Source: Deltaproteobacteria bacterium (lineage in GTDB: Bacteria > Desulfobacterota > Deferrimicrobia > Deferrimicrobiales > Deferrimicrobiaceae). Taken from it: a stretch of DNA of 33,532 nt. The notes below the pieces were generated by a model. The model was not told the origin of the DNA. It worked only from the letters and a program-made list of their open reading frames with translations, and searched no databases. The position numbers and the translations under genes are program-made. This document shows, in pieces, positions 20,649 through 25,999 of this stretch. The stretch is from assembly GCA_016234845.1 (NCBI GenBank), contig JACRNP010000031.1:1-33532 (forward strand), given 5' to 3'. Within the stretch, counting starts at the first letter, position 1; every line of letters starts with the position of its first letter.

Positions 20649-20867
20649 GTGAAACCCGAAGTCGAAAAGGTTCTGGACAGCATTCGCCCCGCCCTGCAGG
20701 CAGACGGGGGAGACGTGGAACTCGTCGAGGTCGACGGGGGCGTGGTGAAGGTGCGCCTCACCGGCGCATGCGGCGGCTGCCCGATGGCGCAGATGACCCT
20801 GAAGGGCGGCATCGAGGCGGCACTCAAGGAGCGGATCCCCGCCGTGGAGCGGGTGGAGTCCGTATAA
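20649..20867 (+). CDS. NifU-like (Nfu) iron-sulfur scaffold domain protein
   Basis: This 72-residue stand-alone Nfu domain carries the invariant CxxC cluster-binding motif in [14 protein letters not shown] (about residues 39-52). The start is [27 protein letters not shown], which is typical. Nfu proteins receive Fe-S clusters and pass them to apo-targets in the cytoplasm. GTG at 20649 is chosen because AGGAGGAGG lies eight bases upstream. A GTG at 20640 would overlap that ribosome site. It is followed by a ferredoxin gene 27 bp later and lies about 1.1 kb before the IscS/IscU cluster, with one convergent gene between. Confidence 0.93.
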
Positions 20868-20894: not shown

Positions 20895-21098
20895 ATGGCG
20901 TACAAGATCACCGAGGAGTGCATCGCCTGCGGCGCATGCGTGCCGGAGTGCCCCGCCCAGTGCATCGCGGAGGGGGACCCGATCTACGGAAACGCGAATA
21001 CGGACCGGAATCGCCGTCCCTGCCGGGGCGGCCGAACGGGGCGGGAGGACACCTTCCCGCCCCGTTTCATTTCCAGGGACCTGGGGACGCTCCCGTAA
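20895..21098 (+). CDS. Truncated 4Fe-4S ferredoxin (second cluster motif lost)
   Basis: The first 31 residues match a bacterial 2[4Fe-4S] ferredoxin: MAYKITEECIACGACVPECP with Cys9, 12, 15 and 19, then the usual AEGDPIY. After that the expected second CxxCxxC...CP is missing. The chain instead becomes GNANTDRNRRPCRGG and then reads straight through an intrinsic terminator hairpin (residues about 47-58) before stopping at 67 residues. Coding through one's own terminator suggests that an internal deletion removed the second half and the original stop. One cluster might still bind. AAGGGAGG precedes the ATG, and the gene is probably co-transcribed with nfu. Confidence 0.75.
   Translation: MAYKITEECIACGACVPECPAQCIAEGDPIYGNANTDRNRRPCRGGRTGREDTFPPRFISRDLGTLP
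21035..21070 (+). terminator. Intrinsic terminator after nfu-ferredoxin
   Basis: A perfect 12-bp stem AACGGGGCGGGA (21035-21046) / TCCCGCCCCGTT (21055-21066) with an 8-base loop is followed by TTTCATTTCC. It faces the plus-strand genes and separates them from the convergent TlpA-like gene. It lies inside the current ferredoxin reading frame, which is part of the evidence that the ferredoxin is damaged. Confidence 0.8.
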
Positions 21099-21957: not shown

Positions 21958-22155
21958 ATGGCGAAATGGTCGATGGAAGAGGCGCTCCGGCTCGCGCTGC
22001 GGCTCGAAGAGGAGAATTTCGGGGAGTACGAGAAGAGCGCCTCGGAGGCGGGGAACCCGGGAGTGAAGTCGATGTTCCGGTACCTCGCGGACGAGGAGCG
22101 GAAGCACATAACCCTCATTCGGGACAAGATGGCGCAGTTCAACGTCAAGCCGTGA
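21958..22155 (+). CDS. Mini ferritin/rubrerythrin-like protein A
   Basis: The 65-residue protein makes just one two-helix unit of a ferritin-like domain. Helix 1 is MEEALRLALRLEEENFGEYEKSASEA with Glu at the metal-ligand position (EEENFGEYE). Helix 2 is VKSMFRYLADEERKHITLIRDKM with the ExxH-type DEERKH. A normal rubrerythrin has four helices, so a di-iron site would need dimer formation. GGAAGGAGA lies upstream of the ATG. It opens a same-direction run with iscS-like, iscU, ferritin-like, mini-ferritin B and cysS. It has the same length and plan as mini-ferritin B at 24327-24524. Confidence 0.82.
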   Translation: MAKWSMEEALRLALRLEEENFGEYEKSASEAGNPGVKSMFRYLADEERKHITLIRDKMAQFNVKP

Positions 22156-22177: not shown

Positions 22178-23386
22178 ATGGCGAACGTCTTCTTCGACCA
22201 CATCTCCACGACGCCCCTCGACCCCCGCGTGCTCGAGGCGATGATGCCGTACCTCACCGGATGGTACGGCAACCCCTCGTCGCACATCCACGAACAGGGG
22301 CAGGCGGCCCTCCGTGCGGTGGACACGGCGCGGGGACAGGTCGCCGCGATGATCGGGGCGAAGGCGGGGGAGATCGTCTTCACCTCCGGGGCGACCGAGG
22401 CGAACAACCTCGCGGTCCTCGGCGCGGCCGAGGCCGCGGGCGCCGGCAGGCGGCACGTGGTCGTGTCGGAGGTCGAGCACTTCTCCGTGATGAACGCCCT
22501 GGTCCCGCTTCGCAACGCGGGGGACGACGTCACCGTCGTTCCGGTGGACGCGGACGGGCGGGTGGACCCCGCCGCCGTCCGGGAGGCGCTTCGACCCGGC
22601 ACGGCGCTCCTGTCCGTGATGCAGGCGAACTCCGAGATCGGCACGGTCGAGCCGGTGGAGGAGATCGGGCGGATCGCCCGCGAGGCGGGCGTCCCGTTCC
22701 ACGTGGACGCGACCGCTTCGGCCGGACACATCCCGCTGGACGTCCGGGAGCTGCAGGCGGACTTCGTCACCCTGTCCGCGCACAATTTCTACGGCCCCAA
22801 GGGGGTCGGGGCGCTCTACGTCCGGAGCGGCGCGAAGGTCGCCGCGCGGTCGTTCGGCGGTTTCCAGGAGTCCGGGTACAGGGCGGGCACCGAGAACGTC
22901 GCCGGGATCGTCGGGATGGGCGCGGCGGCCCTGCTGGCGGCGGCGGAACGGGAGTCCCGCGCGGTGGAACTCGCCAGGCTCGGGAGGATCCTGCGGGAGG
23001 GGCTGGCGCCGATCCCGCTGCTCCATTTCACCGGCCACCCTACGCTTCGGCTTCCCGGGCACGTATCCTTCTGGGTGGAGCACGCGGAGGGGGAGTCGCT
23101 CCTCCTCTTCCTGAACGTGAAGGGGATCATGGCGGCGTCGGGATCCGCCTGCAGCTCCAACCTGCGCGGGGAGGACGAGGAGGACCTCGTGGCGTCCCCC
23201 GTGCTCCGGGCGATCGGCGTTCCCAGCGACATCTGCACCGGGTCGATCACGTTCAGCCTCGGGAAGGGGAACACCGAGGACGAGGTGCGGCTGGCCCTTT
23301 CGGTCCTCCCGGGAATCGTCGACCGGCTTCGGGGGATGTCTCCGACGTACCTCGACTACCAGAAACGTCAGGCGCAAGGGGGGTAA
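22178..23386 (+). CDS. IscS/NifS-like protein lacking the PLP lysine
   Basis: The 402-residue fold-type I aminotransferase homologue aligns along the whole length of IscS. Conserved are FTSGATEANNLAV (phosphate-binding loop), His101 stacking on the PLP ring, Asp177 of HVDAT, the RAGTEN loop, the active-site Cys325 in SGSACSSN, and the C-terminal TGSITFSLGKGNTEDEV. With a constant offset of 3 from E. coli IscS, the Schiff-base Lys206 position is Asn203 (codon AAT, 22784-22786, in SAHNFYGPKG) and Gln183 is Ala180. Covalent PLP binding and ordinary cysteine desulfuration are therefore unlikely, yet the sulfur-carrying Cys is kept. A PLP-site-deficient IscS is known from Archaeoglobus fulgidus, where it helps hold a cluster with IscU. 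It is immediately followed by iscU. No strong ribosome site precedes the ATG. Confidence 0.88.
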   Translation: MANVFFDHISTTPLDPRVLEAMMPYLTGWYGNPSSHIHEQGQAALRAVDTARGQVAAMIGAKAGEIVFTSGATEANNLAVLGAAEAAGAGRRHVVVSEVEHFSVMNALVPLRNAGDDVTVVPVDADGRVDPAAVREALRPGTALLSVMQANSEIGTVEPVEEIGRIAREAGVPFHVDATASAGHIPLDVRELQADFVTLSAHNFYGPKGVGALYVRSGAKVAARSFGGFQESGYRAGTENVAGIVGMGAAALLAAAERESRAVELARLGRILREGLAPIPLLHFTGHPTLRLPGHVSFWVEHAEGESLLLFLNVKGIMAASGSACSSNLRGEDEEDLVASPVLRAIGVPSDICTGSITFSLGKGNTEDEVRLALSVLPGIVDRLRGMSPTYLDYQKRQAQGG

Positions 23387-23392
23387 CGAGCG

Positions 23393-23776
23393 ATGGCGGC
23401 GGGCCCGTACAGCGAAAAGGTGATGGACCACTTCATGAACCCGCGGAACGTGGGGGAGATCGAGGGTGCCGACGGCGTCGGAGAGGTGGGGAACCCCGCC
23501 TGCGGCGACATGATGCGGCTGTACCTCAAGATCGACGACGGCCGCGTCATCGACGCCAAGTTCCGCACGTTCGGCTGCGGCGCGGCGATCGCCTCCAGCT
23601 CCATGCTCACCGAGATGATCAAGGGGAAGACCGTGGCGGAGGCCCAGGCGATCACGAACGAACAGGTGTCGGCGGCCCTGGACGGCCTCCCGGCGGTGAA
23701 GATCCACTGCTCCGTGATGGCGGAGCAGGCGGTCAAGTCCGCCCTCGACGACTACGCCAGAAAACATGCCGGCTGA
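23393..23776 (+). CDS. iscU: Iron-sulfur cluster scaffold IscU
   Basis: This 127-residue IscU/NifU-N-type scaffold, on which [2Fe-2S] clusters are built, has all ligands intact. Cys37 and Asp39 are in GNPACGDMM, Cys62 in TFGCGAAIASSS, and His105-Cys106 in KIHCSVMAEQA. The chaperone-binding LPPVK motif is LPAVK here, but no hscA/hscB lies in the window. The start is six bases after the IscS-like stop, with AAGGGGGG as ribosome site, so the two are co-translated. An intact scaffold beside a desulfurase with a broken PLP site suggests that sulfur comes from elsewhere or that the pair holds rather than makes clusters. Confidence 0.95.
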   Translation: MAAGPYSEKVMDHFMNPRNVGEIEGADGVGEVGNPACGDMMRLYLKIDDGRVIDAKFRTFGCGAAIASSSMLTEMIKGKTVAEAQAITNEQVSAALDGLPAVKIHCSVMAEQAVKSALDDYARKHAG

Positions 23777-23791
23777 CCGGGGAGGTGACCG

Positions 23792-24268
23792 TTGCTGGAC
23801 CTGAACGAGATCGAGATCCTGCAGGTGGCCCTGTCGCACGAAGGACGCGCCCGTGAATTCTACGACCGGATGGCGGCCCGGCACGGCGATTCGACCGCGG
23901 GAGACCTCTTCCGGTACCTCTCGGCGGAGGAAGAGGGGCACATCCGGAAGCTGACGGCGCGGTACCGGTACCCCGCTTTCGAGGCGGCGCAGCCGGAGAA
24001 GCATCTCCCCTACCTGATCGACCTGGACCGCATGGCGCGGGAGGACGGGGTGGACGCGGACGTCGATACCGGACCGGAAGCGGTCCGGCGGGGGCTGGGA
24101 ATCGCCCGAAAGGCCGAGTTGCACGCCGTAGAGTTCTACTCCCTGGCGGGCGGGGTCGTCGACGACAAGGCGACGAAAACGCTCCTCGCGGAGCTGGAAG
24201 ACGAGGAGCGCCGTCACCTGGCCAGGATCGAGGGCCACCTGGCGAACCTTCCGCCGGGGCCCCGCTGA
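23792..24268 (+). CDS. Ferritin-like (rubrerythrin-type) protein
   Basis: The 158-residue protein has two ferritin-like helical pairs. The first (about 5-55) has SHEGRAREFYDRMA and LFRYLSAEEEGHI. The second (about 98-150) has ARKAELHAVEFYSLA and LLAELEDEERRHLARI. The Glu and ExxH residues expected for a di-iron centre are present in both halves. There is no rubredoxin domain (no CxxC). Such proteins act as peroxide reductases or iron-handling proteins in anaerobes. TTG is the start, with GGGGAGGTG upstream, 15 bp after iscU. It fits with the two mini-ferritins as part of one iron/oxidative-stress module (inference). Confidence 0.86.
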   Translation: MLDLNEIEILQVALSHEGRAREFYDRMAARHGDSTAGDLFRYLSAEEEGHIRKLTARYRYPAFEAAQPEKHLPYLIDLDRMAREDGVDADVDTGPEAVRRGLGIARKAELHAVEFYSLAGGVVDDKATKTLLAELEDEERRHLARIEGHLANLPPGPR

Positions 24269-24326
24269 TTTTTTCGGCGGGGGGGGCGATCCGCAGAAAA
24301 ATAAACGATCCCGGAGGATGACAGAG

Positions 24327-24524
24327 ATGCCGACCAACCCGATGGAAGTGATCCGGATGGCGCTCGACCGCGAGAAGGCGGCGTACCGGAACTACACCGA
24401 GTACGCCCGGATCGCCACGGAGCCGGAGATCCGCGAGTTGTTCCATTACCTGGCGGAGGAGGAGAAGAAGCACGTGAAGATCCTCCAGGACGAAATCGAG
24501 AAGGAGACGCTCCAGGAGATGTAG
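24327..24524 (+). CDS. Mini ferritin/rubrerythrin-like protein B
   Basis: This protein is 65 residues, the same size as mini-ferritin A. The two-helix plan is repeated: MEVIRMALDREKAAYRNYTEYARIA with Glu/Tyr positions as in rubrerythrin helix A or C, then IRELFHYLAEEEKKHVKILQDEI with EEEKKH. An ATG at 24318 abuts the GGAGG ribosome site, whereas ATG 24327 lies nine bases after it and is preferred. It precedes cysS by 35 bp. Dimerisation, or pairing with protein A, would be needed to build a four-helix di-iron site. Confidence 0.8.
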   Translation: MPTNPMEVIRMALDREKAAYRNYTEYARIATEPEIRELFHYLAEEEKKHVKILQDEIEKETLQEM

Positions 24525-24559: not shown

Positions 24560-25999
24560 GTGGGACTTTCCCTGTACGACAGCGCGTCCCGCGGGAAAGT
24601 CCGCTTCGCGCCCCCGGACCCGTCCCGGGTGTCGATCTACACCTGCGGCCCCACCGTCTACCGGTACGCCCACATCGGCAACCTCCGCACGTACCTGCTG
24701 ACGGACATCCTCGTCCGGACCCTGCGATTCCTCGGGTACGGCACGTTCGCCGTGCAGAACATCACGGACATGGGGCACATGCACCAGGAGCGCCTCGACC
24801 TCGGCGAGGACAAGGTGATCGCCGCCGCGCGCGCGGCGGGGAAATCCGCCCGGGAGATCGCCGAATTCTTCACGGAGGCGTACTTCCGGGATTGCCGGCG
24901 GATGGGGTTTTCCCCGGCGGACGAGTACCCGCGCGCTTCCGCCCACGTGCCCGAGATGATCGAGCTCATCCGGAGCCTCGAGGCGAGGGGAGCGGTGTAC
25001 TCCGGGGGAGGGTTCCTGTACTTCGACGTCGCGAAGGCGGACGGGTACGGAAGCCTGTCGGGCGCCGCGCCAGGCCGGGGGGAGACGGCCTCGCGGACGG
25101 ACGCCGCCGCCCACCGGCACAAGAAACGGGCGGAGGACTTCGTCCTCTGGATGCCCGCGGAGCCGGGACGGGAGTACCTCTGGGACAGCCCGTGGGGGAG
25201 CGGCTGGCCGGGGTGGCACATCGAGTGCGCGGCGATGGCCGTCCGCTACCTCGGCCCCGAGCCCGACATCCATGTCGGCGGCTCCGACCTCCGGTTCCCC
25301 CACCACGAGAACTCGCGGGCGCTGGCGATGACGGCGACGGGAAAGCGGTTCGCCGCGATCTGGATGCACGCGGCGCACCTGCTGGTGGACGGAAGGAAGA
25401 TGTCGAAATCGGCGGGGAACGAGTACACGCTGGACGATCTCGCGTCGGGTCCCCGGGGCGGAGGGAGAGGGTTCTCCCCTGCCGATTTCCGGTACCATTG
25501 CCTGACCTTGCATTACGCGACCCCGATGAATTTCACCTGGGAAGGGCTCGTCGGATCCTCGCGGGCCCTCTCGCGGCTGCGGGGATCGTTCCGGAAGGCG
25601 GCCGAGGGGAGGACGGCCGGCGGGGATGCGGCAAACGTCCTCCGGAAGAAGTTCCGGGACGCGGTGGCGGAGGATCTGAACCTCCCCCGCGCCGTGGCGG
25701 TCGCCCACGAGGCGACGCGGTCCGGGATCGGCGGAGAGACGGCGCGGGCGCTGGCGGAGGAGTGGGACCGGGTGCTTTCCCTGGGGATTCTTCCCGGGGT
25801 CCCGGAAGGAGAGACGGCGGAAGTTCCCGCCGCCGTGGAGGCGTTGTCCCGCGAGAGGGACGCCTTGCGGCGGTCGGGCGACTACGCCGGGGCGGACGCG
25901 ATCCGCGAGAGGATCCGTTCCGCCGGGTACGAGGTCGTGGACGGCCTCCCGCCCGGCGCCGGCCCGGCGATCATCGTTCGAAAGAAAGGAGCGTCATGA
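24560..25999 (+). CDS. cysS: Cysteinyl-tRNA synthetase
   Basis: This 479-residue class I aminoacyl-tRNA synthetase charges tRNA-Cys. Visible are YTCGPTVYRYAHIGN (the HIGH box as HIGN near residues 34-40, with the first zinc-ligand Cys just before), GWHIECAAMA and the HHENSRA zinc ligands in the middle, and the KMSKS loop exactly as KMSKS at 280-284. The C-terminal anticodon-binding region is shorter and Arg/Ala-rich but covers the usual length. The GTG start follows GGGAGGCCGGA. Its stop overlaps the next gene's ATG. It follows the Fe-S/ferritin run in the same direction; cysteine supply links both functions, though co-transcription is unproven. Confidence 0.96.
   Translation: MGLSLYDSASRGKVRFAPPDPSRVSIYTCGPTVYRYAHIGNLRTYLLTDILVRTLRFLGYGTFAVQNITDMGHMHQERLDLGEDKVIAAARAAGKSAREIAEFFTEAYFRDCRRMGFSPADEYPRASAHVPEMIELIRSLEARGAVYSGGGFLYFDVAKADGYGSLSGAAPGRGETASRTDAAAHRHKKRAEDFVLWMPAEPGREYLWDSPWGSGWPGWHIECAAMAVRYLGPEPDIHVGGSDLRFPHHENSRALAMTATGKRFAAIWMHAAHLLVDGRKMSKSAGNEYTLDDLASGPRGGGRGFSPADFRYHCLTLHYATPMNFTWEGLVGSSRALSRLRGSFRKAAEGRTAGGDAANVLRKKFRDAVAEDLNLPRAVAVAHEATRSGIGGETARALAEEWDRVLSLGILPGVPEGETAEVPAAVEALSRERDALRRSGDYAGADAIRERIRSAGYEVVDGLPPGAGPAIIVRKKGAS

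Follow-up and report, generated by a model that had tools for sequence, protein, structure and literature searches.

IscS is regarded as the sulfur supplier of IscU, and it is annotated as a cysteine desulfurase wherever its gene adjoins iscU. IscS proteins without the lysine that forms the Schiff base with PLP are already known from Archaeoglobus fulgidus and have been noted for IscS1 of Methanosarcina (PMC7585200). The nearest known system to the locus described here is the IscS of A. fulgidus (AfIscS; Probable cysteine desulfurase 2; PDB 4eb5, 4eb7, 4hvk and 4r5f, the last being its D199K mutant). AfIscS has Asp199 at the position of the PLP lysine, Ala at the position of the conserved glutamine (4eb5) and Leu at the position corresponding to Arg354 of E. 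coli IscS. It is described as missing the lysine, lacking desulfurase activity and sharing a cluster with IscU (PMC7585200), with its cysteine serving as a ligand of the IscU cluster (PMC7585200, PMC5176006). The A. fulgidus IscU in the cited structure bears an Asp-to-Ala change, so ligation by the IscS cysteine in the wild type may differ.

The window considered in the current analysis is a stretch of 33,532 nt (contig JACRNP010000031.1 of GCA_016234845.1), and this Deltaproteobacteria assembly is referred to as the window genome. Its IscS homologue resembles AfIscS in that the active-site His, Asp and Cys are kept and the partner is IscU; the two share a sequence identity of 42-44% and a TM (target) of 0.96-0.98. 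AfIscS differs in being archaeal, in having no seven-residue insertion after the cysteine and in branching apart from the large bacterial clade when the tree is left unconstrained, although one common clade is not rejected. The IscS1-IscU1 pair of Methanosarcina acetivorans (PMC7585200) also comprises a lysine-less IscS adjoining iscU, with lysine-containing paralogues in the genome, as here. Of the three iscSU pairs in M. acetivorans, one includes an active desulfurase (IscS2), whereas the window genome has a single IscU with a lysine-less partner only. The MIS system (MisS-MisU, Garcia et al., via PMC12442378) is similar to the window genome in its bare IscS and IscU without HscAB, IscA or SUF; MisS, however, is treated in PMC12442378 as a type I cysteine desulfurase. 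The bacterial clade, the loss of Arg354, Gln183 and Lys206 as a block and the pairing with a sole IscU are undescribed in the searchable literature, which excluded subscription papers, the key A. fulgidus ones among them.

The window protein and its diagnostic positions are the following.

22178..23386, + strand: lysine-less IscS homologue of 402 aa (ORF, alignment; AF2 pLDDT 91, IscS/NFS1 fold)
22715..22717, + strand: Ala180 codon at the Gln183 position (alignment; coordinates computed from the residue number)
22784..22786, + strand: AAT codon, Asn203, at the position of the PLP Schiff-base lysine (ORF sequence)
23150..23152, + strand: Cys325 codon, active-site and candidate cluster-ligand cysteine (alignment; invariant in 48/48 lysine-less proteins)
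23153..23200, + strand: mobile low-confidence loop after Cys325, residues 326-341, with the seven-residue insertion (alignment, AF2)
23249..23251, + strand: Thr358 codon at the Arg354 position conserved in lysine-containing desulfurases (coordinates from the residue number)

Codons 202-204 read CAC AAT TTC (His-Asn-Phe), AAT being codon 203. On alignment with E. coli IscS, Lys206 is replaced by Asn203, Gln183 by Ala180, Arg354 by Thr358 and Asn155 by Ser152, and His104, Asp180 and Cys328 are retained as His101, Asp177 and Cys325. Arg354 is the residue that we take to be the substrate-carboxylate-binding arginine of class V desulfurase structures. An earlier note, made from the sequence alone, had claimed the Asn203 and Ala180 replacements, the three retained residues, an intact iscU directly after iscS and a precedent in A. 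fulgidus IscS. All of these held, on the codon reading and the E. coli alignment, on the gene order and IscU ligands given below, and on the residues of 4eb5 together with PMC7585200. It had missed the change of Arg354 to Thr358, and the loss of desulfurase chemistry is better supported because this residue, unchecked there, is lost too.

The window protein matches PF00266 (E 4.7e-79), the class V aminotransferase fold of the IscS/NifS group, and scores 408 bits against the NCBIfam cut-off of 530.75, which places it under the cut-off. Its AF2 model has a mean pLDDT of 91.2, with values below 50 in the cysteine loop (residues 324-330 and 334-337). Foldseek searches with this model retrieve NFS1/IscS structures (E about 1e-45 to 1e-38), the nearest solved ones being human NFS1 complexes and the A. 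fulgidus IscS-IscU; the model matches the IscS of that A. fulgidus complex with a TMt of 0.96-0.97. The common fold, dimer-type sequence, catalytic cysteine loop and gene adjoining iscU are shared with the IscS/NifS desulfurases (E. coli IscS, human NFS1, TIGR03402 NifS), from which the window protein differs in the loss of the active-site Lys, Gln and Arg altogether. The seven-residue insertion comes directly after the active-site cysteine (SSNLRGEDEEDLVAS). One family member (L031) has a lysine-less N-terminal part and, unlike the other orthologues, no insertion in the loop after the cysteine; it is a possible recombinant.

A scan of named genomes has identified 80 relatives, and the lysine is absent in 80/80. 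The scan patterns were drawn from a lysine-less alignment, so this is not an unbiased frequency. The relatives are encoded in 'Deltaproteobacteria' of the CSP1-8 kind, Zixibacteria, Nitrospinae, Deferribacterales, Schekmanbacteria, Scalindua, Syntrophales/Syntrophorhabdaceae and Endomicrobium, and carry Asn, Gln, Val, Thr, Ser, His, Arg or Ala at the lysine position; Pro, Leu, Met and Asp turn up there in the phylum sample described below. A comparison set of 97 representatives less than 72% identical permitted 48 bacterial lysine-less proteins to be set against 41 lysine-containing ones. Arg354, Lys206 and Gln183 are the three most discriminating positions in the whole protein: all are kept in 41/41 of the lysine-containing proteins, against 0/48, 0/48 and 1/48, respectively, of the lysine-less ones. 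Asn155 is retained in only 12 and His205 in 19 of the 48. His104, Asp180 and Cys328 are each present in 48/48, Thr76 in 45/48, and Thr243 is kept as Thr or Ser in 47/48. A substitute lysine at another site has been considered and is rejected, as no invariant new lysine occurs among the 48 rows of the clade. This pattern of losses indicates that the machinery for binding and activating the substrate is gone, that the cysteine nucleophile or ligand is kept and that the PLP pocket is kept in part. The retained pocket residues could reflect either PLP bound without a Schiff base or a structural role; both are no more than possibilities.

A less biased picture is given by a census of the phylum to which the window belongs, with its own family left out, comprising 73 iscU genes with an IscS neighbour, although some of the loci were first picked as best matches to the window protein. 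The neighbour is lysine-less in 28 cases and lysine-containing in 45, which answers for one phylum the question raised in the earlier note of how often iscU-adjacent homologues lack the lysine. None of the 28 has the Gln or the Arg, and all 28 have Cys328. The Gln is present in all 45 lysine-containing neighbours and the Arg in all 32 that are readable at that position, and no mixed combination of the three residues is seen wherever they can be read.

Two further groups of sequences have been observed. In a second lysine-less subtype (L201, L202, L213, L214, L183, L187) iscU lies upstream and the cysteine motif is of the TRSAC/VRSAC type (Gly to Arg); it occurs in addition to a lysine-less iscS->iscU pair in Syntrophus (G067), Syntrophorhabdaceae (G070) and three other genomes (G031, G049, G057). 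A further class V protein of the same Syntrophorhabdaceae genome (L141) is SufS-like and carries Ser in place of the lysine, a separate loss.

In the phylogenetic tree the 48 bacterial lysine-less rows form one group (96/95), with one lysine-containing protein (PDB 9wep) basal in it, and a tree constrained to keep the 48 as a single clade cannot be rejected (AU p 0.515). AfIscS, the sole archaeal MisS-type sequence in the tree, from which M. acetivorans IscS1 was left out, branches in the free tree with lysine-containing proteins (100/97) together with one bacterial Asp protein (L197), outside the lysine-less clade. The A. fulgidus precedent may hence be convergent and not homologous. A single lysine-less clade that includes AfIscS and L197 is likewise not rejected (AU p 0.396). 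A single loss in bacteria is likely; whether the archaeal loss was independent or common with it is neither shown nor excluded.

The genes surrounding the lysine-less iscS are the following.

20649..20867, + strand: Nfu (NifU C-terminal-like) cluster carrier in the neighbouring block (PF01106, E 6e-32)
21958..22155, + strand: ferrA, half-rubrerythrin or ferritin-like protein of 65 aa, upstream of iscS (PF02915, E 9.6e-8)
23393..23776, + strand: iscU scaffold, 127 aa, the sole NifU_N protein detected in the genome (profile match, ligands intact)
23792..24268, + strand: ferrB, ferritin-like protein of 158 aa (profile match)
24318..24524, + strand: ferrC, half-rubrerythrin of 68 aa (PF02915, E 1.2e-9)
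24560..25999, + strand: cysS, cysteinyl-tRNA synthetase, last gene in the block (ORF, profile match)

The iscU gene starts 6 bp past the iscS stop, and its product has Cys37, Asp39, Cys62, His105 and Cys106 intact. Each of these residues is kept in all 86 unique IscU proteins paired with a lysine-less IscS, of which 80 are encoded downstream (iscS->iscU) and 6 upstream (iscU->iscS). The window genome is 95.8% complete and encodes one NifU_N protein, this IscU; no SufB/D, HscB (HscB_C) or A-type carrier (Fe-S_biosyn) has been detected in it. The IscU with its lysine-less IscS is therefore the only recognised assembly scaffold, and another scaffold in this genome (SUF or a second IscU) is rejected, none having been found. 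Among 17 other genomes of the family and class, 15 have one NifU_N protein. The exceptions are G013, without a NifU_N match, and G002, with an extra SufU-like protein and a complete SufB/D pair; a weak SufB-like match is present in 2 of the 17, distinct from G002. The Endomicrobium, Deferribacterales, Calditerrivibrio and Nitrospinae genomes also have one IscU, adjoining a lysine-less IscS, and no SUF.

The earlier note had proposed a search for a second, lysine-containing IscS in the genome. It is present, in the order cysE-iscR-iscS-mnmA, in the window genome as well as in the closed genome of a relative, and a lysine-containing IscS is found in the Endomicrobium, Deferribacterales and Nitrospinae genomes too. 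Every single-IscU genome examined in detail has a lysine-containing IscS or SufS-like paralogue, save the incomplete Calditerrivibrio MAG. The lysine-containing and lysine-less IscS share an identity of 40-47%.

The order ferrA-iscS-iscU-(ferrB)-ferrC-cysS is largely conserved in the family and class, ferrA and ferrC being present in most of these relatives and ferrB in part of them. In other phyla no ferr genes have been found beside the lysine-less pair except for one weak match (L056). That the ferritin-like proteins are local iron donors is possible and remains a guess. A KIIK motif has been reported for the persulfide synthase activity of E. coli CysRS (PMC5660078); KIIK is not visible in the expected region of the CysRS ORF at 24560-25999, in which KMSKS is present, and the operon CysRS as a local source of persulfide is only a weak idea. 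A small ferredoxin beside nfu (20895-21095) has the first 4Fe-4S motif only; as its second half is missing, either the deletion is real or the assembly has collapsed there. In the relatives L039, L041, L045 and L046 the ferredoxin goes on into a second CxxCxxC half and stops at about 56 aa.

In the model proposed here the window protein would be a non-desulfurating IscS and a dedicated partner of IscU. It would still have the dimer fold of IscS and the mobile loop that bears the cysteine, having lost the Lys of the PLP aldimine, the Gln that would position PLP O3' and the Arg and, usually, the Asn that would hold the cysteine substrate. Cys325 is predicted to reach into the IscU site, where it would complete the ligation of a nascent [2Fe-2S] cluster and/or take up sulfur made elsewhere, arriving either in the form of sulfide or, from the separate lysine-containing IscS, as persulfide. 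The residue losses, the conservation of the cysteine and of the IscU ligands, the operon, the single IscU and the presence of a lysine-containing paralogue are shown. The loss of desulfurase activity, which the earlier note had also suggested, is supported by the residues and very likely; in the absence of an assay it is an inference. The role as cluster ligand or sulfur acceptor, in which IscU binding, cluster ligation and the sulfur source are all inferred without biochemistry, is favoured by a modest margin, and the suggestion of the earlier note that the protein holds or transfers clusters or accepts sulfide or persulfide is likewise still an inference. In its favour the cysteine is kept in 48/48 and the IscU ligands in 86/86, residue conservation being the only evidence here for cluster ligation, and in an E. 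coli iscS mutant IscU can draw on H2S (PMC13015791). Against it stands the lysine-less IscS of Scalindua that has no adjoining iscU. The pocket may also still bind PLP, given the conservation of His104, Asp180 and Thr76, and PLP would be needless for a pure cluster ligand. The Scalindua (anammox) loci have been observed to lack a neighbouring iscU as a group; in one of them (L065) the lysine-less IscS follows thioredoxin and CcdA/DsbD-like genes, and IscU is encoded elsewhere in the genome.

Of the rival explanations, sequencing error, a pseudogene or drift of a redundant copy has only the loss of the catalytic residue to support it. All orthologues readable in the same family and class are without the lysine, with Asn in nearly all and His in two, and one relative, of 73% identity and with His at this position, lies on a closed chromosome (CP070783). 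Sequencing error is rejected on these grounds. The reading frames are open, NG86 dN/dS of the window gene against four relatives is about 0.17-0.30, indicating purifying selection, and the protein is the partner of the only IscU, on which grounds pseudogene and redundant-copy drift are rejected. This rival is all but excluded, and the claim of the earlier note that the replacement is not a read error held. A relay of persulfide is better placed, though still unlikely: the lysine-containing IscS would load the lysine-less one by transpersulfidation, and Cys325 would pass the sulfur to IscU without being a lasting cluster ligand. The lysine-containing IscS or SufS-like paralogue of the single-IscU genomes examined in detail (apart from the incomplete Calditerrivibrio MAG), the invariant Cys328 and the long, flexible cysteine loop favour it; however, the linkage of the lysine-containing gene is with tRNA thiolation, through mnmA, and not with the iscU operon, and no transfer protein is evident.

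There is little to recommend a heterodimer, in which the lysine-less subunit would contribute the phosphate-binding Thr243' and an IscU-docking surface to a lysine-containing active site. Thr or Ser occupies position 243 in 47/48 and both genes are in the genome, but they lie in separate operons with separate partners, and the subunits are only 40-47% identical. To our knowledge there is no structural precedent for such a mixed dimer. Equally improbable is that PLP (or PMP) is bound non-covalently and that the enzyme, lacking the lysine, still carries out a PLP reaction, be it slow or of another kind. The retention of His104, Asp180, Thr76 and Thr243 could be cited for it, as could the title of a 2013 A. 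fulgidus paper, 'unusual L-cysteine desulfurase'. Arg354, Gln183 and, mostly, Asn155 and His205 are nevertheless lost along with the lysine, no new invariant lysine has appeared, and the title of a later A. fulgidus paper states that there is no desulfurase activity.

The non-desulfurating partner of IscU thus remains the preferred reading. The combination of IscU with a lysine-less IscS that keeps its cysteine recurs across many phyla, so these bacteria probably build clusters on a partner that does not desulfurate cysteine. A bolder reading, to which we would give clearly less than an equal chance as a whole, is that an ancient, large and multi-phylum bacterial family assigns the two functions of IscS to separate proteins, the lysine-containing desulfurase being linked to the synthesis of cysteine and the thiolation of tRNA and the catalytically dead IscS serving as the structural and ligand partner of the sole IscU. 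If this is true, free sulfide or relayed sulfur would be the main source for Fe-S clusters, and the flanking mini-ferritins would donate the iron in the lineage of the window.

The only recognised scaffold of this lineage, and 28 of the 73 iscU genes with an iscS neighbour sampled in one phylum, are paired with a protein without the residues for desulfuration, and what had been a curiosity of A. fulgidus becomes a widespread bacterial theme. A separate source of sulfur, either sulfide or a second desulfurase, is predicted for these organisms. The Lys206/Gln183/Arg354 triple can serve as a flag for correcting annotations, and whether the cysteine of IscS truly ligates the cluster, a long-standing question, is now testable in many bacterial proteins.
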